Source of the DNA: Bacteroidota bacterium | GTDB lineage: Bacteria; Bacteroidota; Bacteroidia; Sphingobacteriales; Sphingobacteriaceae | Direction of reading: 5' to 3' | NCBI GenBank assembly: GCA_018828585.1 | Contig: JAHJVW010000105.1 | Span: 1 to 36,830, forward strand | DNA: 36,830 nt | Shown: piece by piece, positions 1-17,538 of the stretch | Layout: the number at the start of each line of letters is the position of its first letter | Numbering within the stretch: the first letter of the stretch is position 1 | Translations under genes and position numbers: made by a program | The notes under the pieces: model-generated | The model's input: only the letters and a program-made list of their open reading frames with translations | Database searches by the model: none | Told to the model about the DNA's origin: nothing

Positions 1-233
1 CCAAAACTTATTCTTTTAATGTGGGAAACTGAACAGAGGTTTTTAGACAGTTTGACGTCTTGCGGCTAAGGTTTAGTGCAGTATGAGCGAACAGCCTGTC
101 CCGCTATCGGGAAAACGCCTAAAACAACTCAATTCTTAGTATTAAATTCTCGTTTAAATTTATTAGCTAAAAGTTTGAAAAAGACCTACATTGTACTTGT
201 AAATTTTTTTAATCAAAACCTTAAATTAATAAC
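1..233. other. Left-edge intergenic region with repeat-like element
   Basis: No convincing gene is visible. On the plus strand a 22-codon open frame runs in from the left edge and stops at 67-69. It could be the tail of an upstream gene, but it is too short to judge. A short hairpin (TCCCG, loop CTAT, CGGGA) sits at 99-112. The block CTTGCGGCTAAGGTTTA at 59-75 recurs with two mismatches on the opposite strand at 35588-35604, so part of this region may be a dispersed intergenic repeat. Confidence 0.4.
174..199 (+). promoter_or_regulatory. Possible promoter of the DsrE-like gene
   Basis: TTTG at 174-177 is followed after 16 bases by TACTTG at 194-199. This resembles the Bacteroidota TTTG / TAnnTTTG promoter, but with a shortened spacer and an imperfect -7 box. 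It lies about 35 bases before the ATG at 234. The call is weak. Confidence 0.3.
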
Positions 234-9585: not shown

Positions 9586-10548
9586 ATGAAAAGCGATAAA
9601 ATATTTTGGGGAATTCTCTTTGTCTTTGTTGGAGGGATATTTCTTTTAGAAAACTTCGGAGTTATAGATTTTAGCTGGCATTATGTATGGCGTTTCTGGC
9701 CGGTTATCTTAATTTTAATGGGAGTAAACATCCTGTTTTCACGAAGTAATTCAAAAATTGGCGTTTTAGTTACGGTCATCATTACCGTACTTACTTTGGG
9801 TTTATTGACCTTTAAAGGATTACAAAAAGGTCAGGAACATGACCATTGGGATTTTGGCTTTTCTGATGGCGTTAAAGATGGTTGGGGTAACAGGGATGGC
9901 GATAATAATAACAATACAGATAGTACAGTAAATTACCAAGAAGCCTTCGAAGACGGCACCAATCATGCCGTTTTAAATATTAAGGGTGGTGCAGCAAAAT
10001 ACATTTTAAACAGCGGAACATCCTCACTATTTACTGCAAACACTAGAGGCAATAGGCGCCCATTTTATGTGCTGAGGACGGAAAAGGTAGATCGTACGAC
10101 CACTGTAAATTTTATTGCTAAAAGCGCTAAAACAATGCATTTTGATAGCGATGAAAGCAATGACATCACCATGTCTTTAAATCCTTTGCCTACATGGGAC
10201 TTAAACCTAACAATGGGCGCTGGAAAAGCTGATTTTGACTTAAGTGTTTTCAAAATGCAAAACATCAATATAAAAGGAGGAGCTGCGGAGTTTGATATTC
10301 GCTTAGGTGATTTATCCCAATTAGTGAATTTAACGGCCGAGACTGGTATAGCAGACGTGACCATTGAGATACCAACAGGTGTAGGTTGCCGAATTAAAAC
10401 AGCTACAGGTTTATCCTCTAAAAGCTTTGAAGATTTTATAGATAAAGGGGATGGCAATTACGAAACCTCAAACTATAACTCTTCTGCTAAAAAAATCAAT
10501 ATTAGTTTTAAAGGTGGATTAAGCGATATTAAGGTCAAAAGGTATTAA
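9586..10548 (+). CDS. LiaF-like membrane protein (DUF5668 and beta-rich domain)
   Basis: A 320-residue protein. The N-terminal ~80 residues hold the LiaF-type membrane region (WGILFVFVGGIFLLENFGVI, then FWPVILILMGVNILF and a third helix). A linker rich in Asp, Gly and Asn follows. Residues ~130-320 are a repetitive beta-strand domain with glycine-anchored turns (INIKGGAAEFDIRLG, LTMGAGKADFDL, ISFKGGLSDIKVK), resembling the LiaF C-terminal or DUF4097 beta-helix. LiaF proteins modulate envelope-stress two-component systems in Firmicutes; Bacteroidota homologues have no such partner here. The stop overlaps the next start as TAATG, implying coupling to the RDD gene. Confidence 0.85.
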   Translation: MKSDKIFWGILFVFVGGIFLLENFGVIDFSWHYVWRFWPVILILMGVNILFSRSNSKIGVLVTVIITVLTLGLLTFKGLQKGQEHDHWDFGFSDGVKDGWGNRDGDNNNNTDSTVNYQEAFEDGTNHAVLNIKGGAAKYILNSGTSSLFTANTRGNRRPFYVLRTEKVDRTTTVNFIAKSAKTMHFDSDESNDITMSLNPLPTWDLNLTMGAGKADFDLSVFKMQNINIKGGAAEFDIRLGDLSQLVNLTAETGIADVTIEIPTGVGCRIKTATGLSSKSFEDFIDKGDGNYETSNYNSSAKKINISFKGGLSDIKVKRY

Positions 10549-11156
10549 TGGAAAATGCCATTTATACCTTAGTTATTAAAGGGAAACCAGCAGGGCCTTT
10601 TACTTTAGCTGATCTTAAAGAACAAAAAATTCAACCTGATTCCTTCCTTCGTAAACCAGGAATGGACGATTATAAAGAAGCTCACGAATTTGCTGAAATT
10701 CGTGAGCTTCTTCATTTTAACCAACAATTTACCGAACCCCAATATTTCGCTGGTTTCGATTTACGAATGCTGGCAGATGCCATTGATTGGTTTGTGATTT
10801 TTGGTATGATGGCCATTGTGGAGTTACTGATCGTCATGTTCTTAAACAATCAGACTAAAACTTTAATTACCATTGGCTCTGGCTTATTACTGATGCCTTT
10901 TTTTAAGTTTTTCTATCACCTATATATGGAGTATCACCGTCAAGCGACCATCGGTAAAGGATTAATGAATATCAAAGTCACCAATATGCAGGGTTTAAAA
11001 CCCAGCTTACAGGAGGTCTTCCTAAGAAACCTTGGTAAGGTCCTCAGTACCCTCACCCTTTTCTTTGGCTATTTTTATTTGTTTCTGAACAAAAAGCAAC
11101 AAACCCTACACGATAAAATGGCTAATACATTAGTGATTAAAGAGCGCTTAATGTAA
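10548..11156 (+). CDS. GYF_2-like and RDD domain membrane protein
   Basis: A 202-residue protein. The first ~50 residues resemble a GYF_2 domain (YTLVIKGKPAGPFTLADLK, with a PDSFLRKPGMDDY segment). Residues ~70-195 form an RDD domain: FDLRMLADAIDWFVIFGMM (first helix with Arg and Asp), a second helix pair, and the ATIGKGLMNIKV segment typical of RDD proteins. RDD proteins are small transporters or accessory membrane proteins of uncertain substrate. The gene ends the SDR-PspC-DUF5668 run, just before a strong terminator. The sequence encoding the linker (10675-10712) contains a perfect 17-bp inverted repeat. Confidence 0.85.
   Translation: MENAIYTLVIKGKPAGPFTLADLKEQKIQPDSFLRKPGMDDYKEAHEFAEIRELLHFNQQFTEPQYFAGFDLRMLADAIDWFVIFGMMAIVELLIVMFLNNQTKTLITIGSGLLLMPFFKFFYHLYMEYHRQATIGKGLMNIKVTNMQGLKPSLQEVFLRNLGKVLSTLTLFFGYFYLFLNKKQQTLHDKMANTLVIKERLM
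10675..10712. repeat. 17-bp perfect inverted repeat inside the RDD gene
   Basis: AAGAAGCTCACGAATTT at 10675-10691 pairs perfectly with its complement at 10696-10712 across a 4-nt loop GCTG. It is fully in frame and encodes the linker between the GYF-like and RDD domains. Confidence 0.9.
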
Positions 11157-14501: not shown

Positions 14502-14714
14502 TTAGTATAAATAAGGTCTAAACTCTAAAATATCTGCTGGTTGGCATTCCAGAATTTCGCAAATCTTTTCCAAGGTAGAGAAACGAATAGCTTTGGCTTT
14601 TCCTGTTTTTAAGATAGAGAGGTTTGCCTGTGTAATTTCTACTTTCTCTGCAAGGTCTGATAAAGAGATTTTTCTTCTCGCCATCATGACATCTAAATTC
14701 ACGATAATGGGCAT
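14502..14714 (-). CDS. XRE family helix-turn-helix regulator (Cro/C1, HTH_26 type)
   Basis: A 70-residue protein that is essentially a single XRE DNA-binding domain: MARRKISLSDLAEKVEIT, then QANLSILKTGKAKAIRFSTL and EKICEILECQPADILEF. This is the short Cro/C1-type HTH found next to DUF2975 membrane proteins. It starts 2 bases after the stop of the DUF2975 gene, so they form one transcript. It probably regulates that transcript; the perfect palindrome at 15370-15418 in the promoter is the obvious candidate operator. The target is inferred, not shown. Confidence 0.9.
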   Translation of the reverse strand: MPIIVNLDVMMARRKISLSDLAEKVEITQANLSILKTGKAKAIRFSTLEKICEILECQPADILEFRPYLY

Positions 14715-14716
14715 AA

Positions 14717-15328
14717 TTATACGGTTAAGCTATTTTCTTCTTCTATTTCTACGCCTCTTTGATAAACCATGGCAATAACTAAAATTATTAAGCCTGTAAT
14801 GATTCCATCACCCAAATTAGTTAACAATCTAAGTTTCGGAATTTCAAGTGAATGTTGAATTAACGCATTTATAATAAAGTAATGAATTAATCCAAATACA
14901 TCAGATAAAATGAAGATGATCGCCAATAAATTCAATCTTTTGATCAGGTCTGATTTAAAAGGCTGTTGCATGTTTATACCTTCAAAAAGTTTTTTGAAAT
15001 TCCACAATAAAATTAATCCATAAAATAAAAATACTAAAGTGGCAAGCATATAATAAAAACTTAAAGATGAGTGTGCCTCTGCATTTATTGTGAATAAGTC
15101 TGTTACTTTTTGATATTGTATTTTGTTATCTGTTGAGTAAAGATCAATTGATTTTGATGCACTTAAATCTTTATAATAAGCATTTTGATCTATCTTAACA
15201 TAGTCAGATTTTTCAGAATACAAATCGTAAACATCTTTTGCAAGAACAAAGAAGATAACTACAATTAAAAAATAGAATAGGAAGCTAGTTGCTATTCTTA
15301 AAAATGATAAAATGAGTTTTGTGTTCAT
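14717..15328 (-). CDS. DUF2975 domain membrane protein
   Basis: A 203-residue inner-membrane protein with four predicted helices: about residues 7-29, then around 88-110 (YYMLATLVFLFYGLILLWNF), around 128-150 (LLAIIFILSDVFGLIHYFII) and around 172-190 (LGDGIITGLIILVIAMVYQ). A soluble loop of about 55 residues lies between helices 1 and 2. DUF2975 proteins are commonly paired with a small XRE regulator, as here (2-bp gap). The pair is thought to be a membrane sensor with its transcription factor, but no signal is known. The promoter contains a clear -7 box and the palindrome. Confidence 0.85.
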   Translation of the reverse strand: MNTKLILSFLRIATSFLFYFLIVVIFFVLAKDVYDLYSEKSDYVKIDQNAYYKDLSASKSIDLYSTDNKIQYQKVTDLFTINAEAHSSLSFYYMLATLVFLFYGLILLWNFKKLFEGINMQQPFKSDLIKRLNLLAIIFILSDVFGLIHYFIINALIQHSLEIPKLRLLTNLGDGIITGLIILVIAMVYQRGVEIEEENSLTV

Positions 15329-15347: not shown

Positions 15348-15378
15348 CAAACATAAGATAAAAATTTCTATTTAACAA
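15348..15378 (-). promoter_or_regulatory. Promoter of the DUF2975-XRE operon
   Basis: On the minus strand, TTG (15378-15376) and TATGTTTG (15355-15348) are separated by 20 bases, matching the Bacteroidota -33 / -7 TAnnTTTG layout. It lies 20 bases upstream of the DUF2975 start. The -33 element lies inside the left arm of the palindrome at 15370-15418. Confidence 0.6.
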
Positions 15379-15418
15379 CATATATTTATTGATTATCAAT
15401 AAATATATGTTGTTAAAT
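15370..15418. promoter_or_regulatory. 49-nt perfect palindrome, candidate XRE operator
   Basis: Two 24-nt arms (15370-15393 and 15395-15418) are exact reverse complements around one central base (15394). The left arm begins ATTTAACAACATATATTTAT. It is entirely intergenic and overlaps the -33 element of the DUF2975-XRE promoter. No T-run follows it in either direction, arguing against a terminator. A repressor binding here would block the promoter. Confidence 0.65.
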
Positions 15419-15521
15419 GATTTTAGTATGCGAAAAGCAATTTGGCGTTCTAAATGTCACAGAAATTCAAATTCTCTTTTGTAAAACAATTTTCCATCAA
15501 AACTATTTAAGATAAAACCTG

Positions 15522-15529
15522 TATTTTTG
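15522..15529 (+). promoter_or_regulatory. -7 promoter box of ispG
   Basis: TATTTTTG matches TAnnTTTG. The start codon is 18 bases downstream of the box, giving a very short leader. No good -33 TTG is visible at the expected spacing. Confidence 0.45.
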
Positions 15530-15546
15530 GGGAAAATATCATTTAC

Positions 15547-17538
15547 ATGGAGGCCGAAGTGAGCAAAGCTTTAAAAGGAGATTACTGTAATTCAATTACC
15601 CAATATTCAAGATTCAAAACTCGGGAGGTACCTATTGGTGCTATTCCGATGGGAGGAGAACAGCCGATTCGTATTCAAAGTATGACGACGGCATTCACCA
15701 TGGATACGGAAGCTTCGATTGAGCAGAGCATCCGGATGATTGATGCGGGCTGTGAGTATGTGCGGATTACGGCTCCGAGCATGAAAGAGGCGCAAAATTT
15801 GGCGGAGATTAAGAAGGGTTTGGAAGCCCGTGGTTATCATGCACCTTTGGTAGCAGATATCCATTTTACGCCCAATGCAGCAGAATTGGCGGCAAAAATT
15901 GTGGAAAAGGTGCGGGTGAATCCAGGGAATTATGCCGATAAAAAGAAGTTTGAAGAAATCAATTATACACCCGAAGCTTATGAGGTAGAGCTGGCGAGGA
16001 TCAAGAAAAAGTTTGCTCCGCTGGTAGAGATTTGTAAAGCCCACGGAACAGCGATGCGGATTGGCACCAATCATGGTTCGTTATCTGATCGGATTATGAG
16101 CTGGTATGGTGATACGCCGAAAGGGATGGTAGAATCGGCGATGGAGTTTATCCGTATTTGCCATGGAATGGATTATCACGAGCTGGTGATTTCGATGAAG
16201 TCGAGCAATCCACAGGTGATGGTGCAAGCTTACCGTTTATTGGTGAAAACCATGGTGGCAGAAGGGATGAATTATCCTTTGCATTTAGGTGTCACCGAAG
16301 CAGGTGATGGGGAAGATGGTCGAATTAAATCGGCAGTAGGAATTGGGACTTTATTAGAAGATGGCTTGGGGGATACCATTCGTGTGTCGCTAACGGAAGA
16401 ACCTGAATATGAAATCCCGGTAGCGCAGGCTTTGGCGCAACGTTACGAGAAGAGAACACAAGTAGTTGAAGAAAATATAGAAATTCCGGATTTTGATTTA
16501 CCAGCGGATTATTCACCCTATGCTTATAATAAAAGAGCTTCGGCCGAGCTGAATACTTTTATTGGCGGGCATCAGGTGCCAAGAGTGATTTTAGATTTAT
16601 CCAATCAGAATTTAAAAGATGCGAATATTCTGGTTGCAGCCGGATATATTTATTCACCGATTTTGGATAAGTATAACATGGGCGATCAATCTATTGATTT
16701 CGCTTATTTAGGTGATCAATTACCTTCTTTCAATTTCCCTGGAAACTTGAAGCAATTGTATAACCATGCAACTTGGGTGACTTTACTGAATAGGACTAAC
16801 TGCCATCCTTTATTTACTTTAAAAGCATACATCGGCGCAAGCCAAAGGGATGCTCATTTGAACCTAGTTTGTGTTTCGAATGCTGATTTAGATGGAGATG
16901 ACTTTAAAGCTATTCCTTTTGATAACACTTTAGTTTTTGTGTTAGAAACGGATGCCGAATATGGCATGATGGATCAAAGAGCTTTCTTTTTTAAACTGAT
17001 GAATGCTGGGATTGATACACCAGTGATTATTAAAAGATCTTATCATTTTGAGGATTCAACAGCTCAGGATCAAAAAGAACTGAAAGCACAATTGTATGCC
17101 GCTACGGATTTAGGCGCTTTGTTATTGGATGGTTTTGGAGATGGTGTTTGGATAGATGCCCCTCAGGTTTCTACCAAATTTAGGGTGTCTACATCTTTCG
17201 GGATTTTGCAGGCCACACGTTCCCGAATTTCTAAAACAGAATACATTTCTTGTCCAAGCTGTGGGCGCACTTTGTTTGATTTACAAGAAACGACCCAGAT
17301 GATTCGTAGTAGAACTGATCATTTAAAGGGGATAAAAATTGGGATTATGGGTTGCATAGTCAATGGTCCGGGGGAAATGGCAGATGCGGATTATGGTTAT
17401 GTAGGAACTGGTCCAGGTAAAATTACCTTATACCGAGGGAAAGAAGTGGTGAAGAAAAACGTAAGCTCTGATCATGCGCTGAACGAGATGATTGATATTA
17501 TGAAAGAAGACGGGAATTGGGTGGAGAAAGAGAATTAA
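15547..17538 (+). CDS. ispG: 4-hydroxy-3-methylbut-2-enyl diphosphate synthase
   Basis: This 663-residue enzyme is the penultimate step of the MEP isoprenoid pathway, converting methylerythritol cyclodiphosphate to HMBPP. It is the long form found in Bacteroidota, chlamydiae and plants, with an insert domain between the TIM barrel (about residues 20-310) and the C-terminal iron-sulfur domain. The cluster ligands are visible: Cys569, Cys572 (CPSCGRT), Cys603 (GCIVNGPGE) and Glu610. The N-terminal IRIQSMTTAFTMDTEASIEQ segment is typical. The first ~900 bases use more GC-rich codons (CGG, GCG, CTG) than the rest. It is a single gene, convergent with the alpha/beta hydrolase. Confidence 0.97.
   Translation: MEAEVSKALKGDYCNSITQYSRFKTREVPIGAIPMGGEQPIRIQSMTTAFTMDTEASIEQSIRMIDAGCEYVRITAPSMKEAQNLAEIKKGLEARGYHAPLVADIHFTPNAAELAAKIVEKVRVNPGNYADKKKFEEINYTPEAYEVELARIKKKFAPLVEICKAHGTAMRIGTNHGSLSDRIMSWYGDTPKGMVESAMEFIRICHGMDYHELVISMKSSNPQVMVQAYRLLVKTMVAEGMNYPLHLGVTEAGDGEDGRIKSAVGIGTLLEDGLGDTIRVSLTEEPEYEIPVAQALAQRYEKRTQVVEENIEIPDFDLPADYSPYAYNKRASAELNTFIGGHQVPRVILDLSNQNLKDANILVAAGYIYSPILDKYNMGDQSIDFAYLGDQLPSFNFPGNLKQLYNHATWVTLLNRTNCHPLFTLKAYIGASQRDAHLNLVCVSNADLDGDDFKAIPFDNTLVFVLETDAEYGMMDQRAFFFKLMNAGIDTPVIIKRSYHFEDSTAQDQKELKAQLYAATDLGALLLDGFGDGVWIDAPQVSTKFRVSTSFGILQATRSRISKTEYISCPSCGRTLFDLQETTQMIRSRTDHLKGIKIGIMGCIVNGPGEMADADYGYVGTGPGKITLYRGKEVVKKNVSSDHALNEMIDIMKEDGNWVEKEN

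Follow-up and report, generated by a model that had tools for sequence, protein, structure and literature searches.

The 49-bp perfect palindrome at positions 15370-15418 of the window, by which we mean the whole 36,830-bp stretch of DNA analysed here, is probably the operator through which a small XRE regulator controls its own operon. We give this reading a probability of about 0.85. Comparison of genomes backs the site itself, its conservation, its genome-wide specificity, its position relative to the promoter in part of the set, and its covariation with the class of the XRE protein.

The palindrome and its operon

The arms of the palindrome (15370-15393 and 15395-15418) have 24 nt each, are 100% complementary and surround one central base, exactly as had been read from the sequence alone. 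With loops of up to 5, this is the longest perfect inverted repeat in the 36,830 bp; the runners-up have 17 and 13 nt and the rest at most 9. An inverted repeat with 17-nt arms lies at 10675-10712, within the ORF 10548-11156. The upstream region (310 bp) is AT-rich; the palindrome score, 24 for the real sequence, did not exceed 10 in 20 dinucleotide shuffles of this region. The inner 23 bp (15383-15405) read TATTTATTG-N5-CAATAAATA, which matches 18 of 18 positions of the motif described below with a spacer of 5. We propose these 23 bp as the operator core, given the comparison across operons and the genome scans, and the 49 bp, with their matched arms and single genomic copy, as the full operator.

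On the minus strand, the start codon of a DUF2975 gene (14717-15328) lies 41 bp past the end of the palindrome. Its ORF, Pfam match and structure model indicate a membrane protein of 203 residues (PF11188, 44.8 bits for a cut-off of 27). It is followed on the same strand by the ORF of a 70-residue XRE regulator (14502-14714), the proposed binder, and the two form a two-gene unit. The XRE matches PF13443 (HTH_26) with 86 bits (cut-off 22, E 2.1e-24), and its model (mean pLDDT 82) has a CylR2-like fold, the best match being CylR2 itself (2xiu_B, E 2.7e-4, TM 0.81/0.87, 1.8 A). A sequence search of the PDB ranks the SaPI2 Stl HTH domain first (E 1.8e-4) and CylR2 third (E 0.014). The model of DUF2975 (mean pLDDT 75) shows four long helices (29-35 residues each) alongside shorter ones, and a fold search against the PDB gave no match at E ≤ 0.001. 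Among 16 aligned sequences, the conserved positions of DUF2975 are P123-F124 and, at the C-terminus, A186, G192, E194, E198, L201 and T202. Matches to DUF2975 occur in at least 145 of the 331 family-sample genomes and in 46 of the 295 class-sample genomes.

The sequence-only reading had placed the palindrome between this operon and ispG, and over the -33 element of the operon's promoter. Both placements were right. The ispG gene (GcpE, identified by ORF and Pfam) is divergent and occupies 15547-17538 on the plus strand. On the minus strand, a TTG in the right, outer arm (15378-15376, with its mirror at 15410-15412) is followed by 20 nt and then by TATGTTTG (15355-15348), which starts 39 bp from the operator centre and is an exact Bacteroidota -7 box, TAnnTTTG. 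From this spacing, the TTG is probably the -33 element of the promoter of DUF2975. TAnnTTTG is reported as the sigma-A -7 box of flavobacteria (PMC9723704).

Conservation and specificity of the core

We gathered DUF2975 loci from three sources: the family, the class and a set of named genomes. From the 255 loci with a DUF2975 ORF we removed identical protein pairs as well as seven repeat loci, and 13 loci failed the adjacency rule; this left 227 operons that encode distinct pairs and have an XRE after DUF2975. These operons are a sample (80 of 211 confirmed relatives, plus the family-sample matches listed). The core was found upstream at 15 or more of its 18 positions in 185 of the 227 DUF2975-HTH_26 (XRE) operons and in 30 of 1135 shuffled regions, a tally that does not count independent events because the set leans to Bacteroidota and includes related rows, and that uses a motif picked after part of the data had been seen. 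The perfect core (18/18) occurs in 56 of the 227 operons and in none of the 1135 shuffles. Its spacer has a length of 5 in 180 of the 185 operons. The core letters TTG and CAA are conserved in themselves, beyond mere pairing, and the G at -3 and the C at +3 are each present in 99% of 156 operators. The search upstream of DUF2975-XRE pairs elsewhere had been suggested by the sequence-only reading, and its outcome supports the XRE operator over -33 proposed there.

The other 42 operons lack the core at 15/18. At least one of them (L032) is a start-codon miscall, with a palindrome of 23-nt arms inside the called ORF, and some carry a different core. Five of the 13 loci that failed the adjacency rule do have an XRE, and also a site (16-17/18). 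In the other eight no XRE was found in the fetched stretch: six are without a site and two have one (L021, G073:C23, 17/18; L219, G297:C1, 18/18). The genome of L219 holds a complete DUF2975-XRE operon elsewhere (L243), so it is possible that the XRE of the latter controls the L219 operator in trans. In L026, the match to the XRE has shrunk to 9 residues. Finally, the record of L176 is titled Glaciecola amylolytica, which we take to be a gammaproteobacterium, and carries an 18/18 operator with a Bacteroidota-like XRE; it would be a case of transfer or a mislabelled record.

We then consider specificity, since the sequence-only reading had named a palindrome dispersed over unrelated loci as the observation that would speak against an operator. 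The 3.58-Mb genome has a single copy of the whole 49-mer. A 141-bp query matched itself and its own mirror in this genome, the next match having an E value of 0.003 over ~32 bp. The 18-position core has a single perfect site there, that of the window, and the closest others differ from it at two positions. When up to three mismatches are allowed, the core pattern has 23 sites and a reversed control pattern 12, hence the core may have weak further targets. Weak matches to the palindrome region, in other genomes and in the window's own, were scanned for palindromes only, except in G058, where the match (L017) is a DUF2975-XRE locus. We also scanned 247 Bacteroidia genomes for the exact motif, independently of DUF2975. 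This revealed eight sites in eight genomes (G000, G075, G395, G423, G484, G492, G501 and G553), all eight located 195-319 bp upstream of a DUF2975 domain match, and the reversed pattern gave no exact site in the genomes listed. The scan covers perfect sites only, and other DUF2975 operons have imperfect ones. We regard it as the strongest single result pointing to an operator.

It is thus extremely improbable that the palindrome is a dispersed repeat (MITE or REP-like) that landed here by chance. Such an element would be expected in several copies; there is one in the genome, and in the 247 genomes the exact core stands solely before DUF2975. What might favour such an element is that the protein search found a DUF2975 like that of the window in one of 18 genomes of the genus, so that the region looks gained or often lost; the PF11188 model has matches in at least three further genomes of the genus (G006, G010 and G016).

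The core is also found outside Bacteroidota. A tblastn search with the XRE matched 189 plasmid records. We read fifteen plasmid loci, of which 13 (L313-L325) are non-Bacteroidota copies with a DUF2975 annotated or scanned for. A symmetric TAT[TC]G-N5-C[GA]ATA core is present in six of these 13 (four Streptomyces, Providencia and Enterococcus raffinosus) and an asymmetric form in two (Priestia and E. faecium); no such core was seen in the copies of Klebsiella, Piscirickettsia, Niallia, E. faecalis and S. atratus (5 of 13). For five of the six symmetric loci, 0 of 500 shuffles had the symmetric core, while E. raffinosus was scanned over a looser stretch of 700 bp, without shuffles. That the core is present in Streptomyces, which are GC-rich, suggests that the protein rather than base composition maintains the site. 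The Moraxella plasmid (L326) was left out of this cross-phylum count, as DUF2975 is not annotated alongside. The Phocaeicola locus (L312) belongs to Bacteroidota and is outside the 13 copies; no core was seen in it, and no ORF was accepted ahead of its XRE.

Promoter geometry, palindrome length and other readings

Flanks were long enough in 176 operators. Counted from the operator centre, an exact TAnnTTTG starts at +15..18 in 55 of them, at +37..40 in 25 and at neither distance in 96. In the first class, it is the left core TTG that has the -33 spacing. In the second, this spacing is taken by an outer TTG at +16..18 in 21 of the 25 operators. The window is in the second class (+39), as is L019 (+38), the best homologue of the family search. 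Since the -7 box sits at two fixed distances, a TTG of the operator is at -33 in both classes. Judged by its position, the operator would cover the -33 element, as expected of a repressor.

The unusual length of the palindrome can be partly explained. The consensus is symmetric past the core to about ±17 (AATAAATATTTATTG-N5-CAATAAATATTTATT in the first promoter class, with the -7 box at +15..18), the innermost spacer positions are asymmetric across operators, and the perfect symmetry of the window reaches ±24. At the true register, 15 of 157 operators have symmetric runs of at least 7 past the core; at eight slid registers, the number was 0 or 1 of 157 each time. Three operators (the window, L028 and L145) have runs of at least 12, and none has such a run at the slid registers. 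When right flanks were permuted among operators, the expected numbers were ~3.3 for runs of at least 7 and 0.06 for runs of at least 12. Given this excess over both controls, arms match within an operator though their letters differ between operators.

These data can be read in two ways. The bound site may be just the 23-bp core or the ~35-bp consensus dyad, with the symmetry to ±24 a by-product of quasi-palindrome correction by template switching. We consider this a serious possibility, if the less probable one: it would fit the rarity of the very long extensions (3 of 157) and the outer arms of the window and L019, which differ in their letters and are each perfectly symmetric. It accounts less well for the excess of symmetry at the true register and for a consensus that is symmetric to about ±17. 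In addition, the outer TTG is probably under selection, since it has the -33 spacing in 21 of the 25 operators of the window's class. The TTG at +16..18 and its mirror CAA would fit extra half-sites, occupied by two dimers with lateral dyads 21 bp apart. For the TTG/CAA at ±16-18 we prefer extra half-sites to template switching, and the last 6 bp may be due to either. By eye, TTG-N5-YAATAA-like units seem to repeat at ~21-bp steps to either side of the core in L101, L223, L239, L241 and other loci of the +39 class, as in a series of sites spaced by two turns of the helix.

The divergent arrangement raises the question of ispG. A block ahead of this gene (15484-15546) is conserved in G015, in G017 and mostly in G007, and a protein search of these three genomes found no DUF2975 like that of the window. 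As the block persists in such relatives, ispG very likely has its own promoter, with TATTTTTG (15522-15529, plus strand), inside the block, as the likely -7 box. In G017 a gene for an M1 peptidase is directly divergent from ispG and the DUF2975-XRE operon is missing at this locus; the latter is therefore an extra piece in the genome of the window, and the alignment of the window with G017 gave no clean boundary or target duplication. In three relatives, paired palindromes with 20-nt arms (TTACTCAATRYATTGAGTAA; L049:701-742, L051:8181-8222, L063:4804-4845) lie ~1.2-1.3 kb past the 3' end of ispG.

It is unlikely that the XRE binds the palindrome as an activator, or that it controls ispG too. 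Such a reading draws on the divergent arrangement of the two units and on the symmetry of the palindrome, which makes the binding of an XRE directionless. However, the -33 TTG of the DUF2975 promoter lies inside the palindrome, where repressors often bind, and the -7 box of ispG lies in its own conserved block, 128 bp from the operator centre. A link between the palindrome and ispG is not supported by these comparisons, and the gene is probably outside the control of the palindrome. Even less likely is a structural element, whether a cruciform, a bidirectional terminator or an insulator between the divergent units. The strand of the palindrome folds very stably as single-stranded DNA (z-score -10.6), and a scanner flags it as terminator-like on the plus strand, with a weak T tail. 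This flag qualifies the sequence-only reading, which had seen no terminator tail; no plus-strand gene in the list of ORFs plausibly ends just ahead of the palindrome. An intrinsic terminator would have a GC-rich stem and a T run at a gene end, and we found 3 GC pairs of 20, a weak tail and no gene end. The palindrome is upstream of the -7 box and therefore outside the transcript of the DUF2975 promoter; the sole Rfam match, a miRNA family, scores 23 bits for a cut-off of 100. This led us to set aside an Rfam RNA and a structural hairpin. A hairpin would also leave unexplained why the letters TTG/CAA are conserved beyond pairing alone. Autoregulation by the XRE is the reading that we retain.

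The DUF2975-XRE module

The operator appears to vary along with the recognition region of the XRE (KAKG versus KAKA). We assessed this in the 191 operators with at least 14/18 positions and a spacer of 5. The operator form TAATTATTG..CAATAATTA is found in 7 of 16 operators with a KAKG recognition region and in 2 of the 175 others (Fisher exact test p = 2e-7, ignoring kinship). The MTNLSLLKTGKVKG subgroup (four rows) has another core, ATTTTATG..CATAAAAT, which is a clean palindrome in three of the four. Eight IVNL-type rows of the KAKG class have neither the TAATTATTG form nor the core of the MTNLSLLKTGKVKG subgroup. The class of the XRE is also reflected in the penultimate residue of DUF2975, which is a Thr in 197 of 200 operons where the XRE is of the KAKA type and in 0 of 24 where it is of the KAKG type (three operons are unclassified). 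This pattern hints at a docking tail in direct contact with the XRE. In a quick tree made without the tail for 93 of the 227 rows (24 KAKG, 69 others), which gave long-branch warnings, the XRE class changes five times, with two independent pairs on well-supported branches; with just these two pairs, kinship may explain the association.

We propose that an XRE dimer with a CylR2-like fold would bind the dyad TATTTATTG-N5-CAATAAATA, and that the outer TTG/CAA half-sites, 13 bp farther out on each side, would admit a second dimer or a tetramer. As the operator covers the -33 TTG, binding would keep RNA polymerase off the DUF2975-XRE promoter, resulting in negative autoregulation. On a signal, DUF2975 would capture or release the XRE, probably via its conserved C-terminal tail. 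What we infer in this scheme is that the XRE binds at all, that it represses and does not activate, that a second dimer joins and that DUF2975 plays this role. A broader version is more speculative, and we hold it to be rather doubtful as a whole: DUF2975 and its tiny XRE would form a membrane-tethered one-component switch present in several phyla, with two dimers on a palindrome of four half-sites and the DUF2975 tail pulling the XRE off the DNA.

The closest characterised analogue of the pair appears to be CylR1/CylR2 of Enterococcus faecalis. As in the window, the regulator is a small stand-alone HTH repressor (CylR2, a 66-residue chain; structures 1utx and 2xiu), and it is the best structural match of the window's XRE. 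Unlike the latter, CylR2 controls a divergent toxin operon. The likeness is drawn from the HTH fold and the described gene pair. According to PMC3709268, CylR2 is encoded with a suspected membrane protein, CylR1, which has three predicted helices and relays a signal by an unknown route. The N-terminal HTH of SaPI2 Stl (8q86, 8qe9) is the best PDB match of the XRE by sequence and the second by fold, but the matched part is one HTH domain of a protein chain that has 232-233 residues. We know of no membrane partner of this protein.

Autoregulatory repressors of the XRE/Cro-CI type commonly have palindromic operators over their own promoter. The window is like them in having a compact dyad over an element of the promoter from which the regulator itself is expressed, and its family is unlike them in that core half-sites TATTTATTG face each other across 5 bp and perfect symmetry extends over 45-49 bp in a few members. 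The pairing of DUF2975 with a YozG-type XRE presumably corresponds to the Bacillus genes YoaS/YozG; in Bacillus subtilis, one of the control genomes, the PF11188 search matched, and the gene pair is the same as in the window. We found no functional account of DUF2975 or of the Bacillus YozG/YoaS pair, operator included, in the open-licence PMC literature. Operators that lie over a promoter and serve an autoregulatory HTH protein are a known kind; the present operator and the wiring of the DUF2975-XRE module were not found in that literature.

DUF2975 genes are common and lack a functional account in the same literature, so the putative operator is a starting point for work on the module. Being sharply specific, it names a DNA target for binding work, and it offers a reporter with which to screen for the signal of the module. 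The regulon can be read from genomes: in its exact form, it comprises almost only the operon itself and a few DUF2975 genes without an adjoining XRE. Some loci (L091, L092, L097, L195, L213, L232 and L278) have three tandem DUF2975-like ORFs ahead of one XRE.
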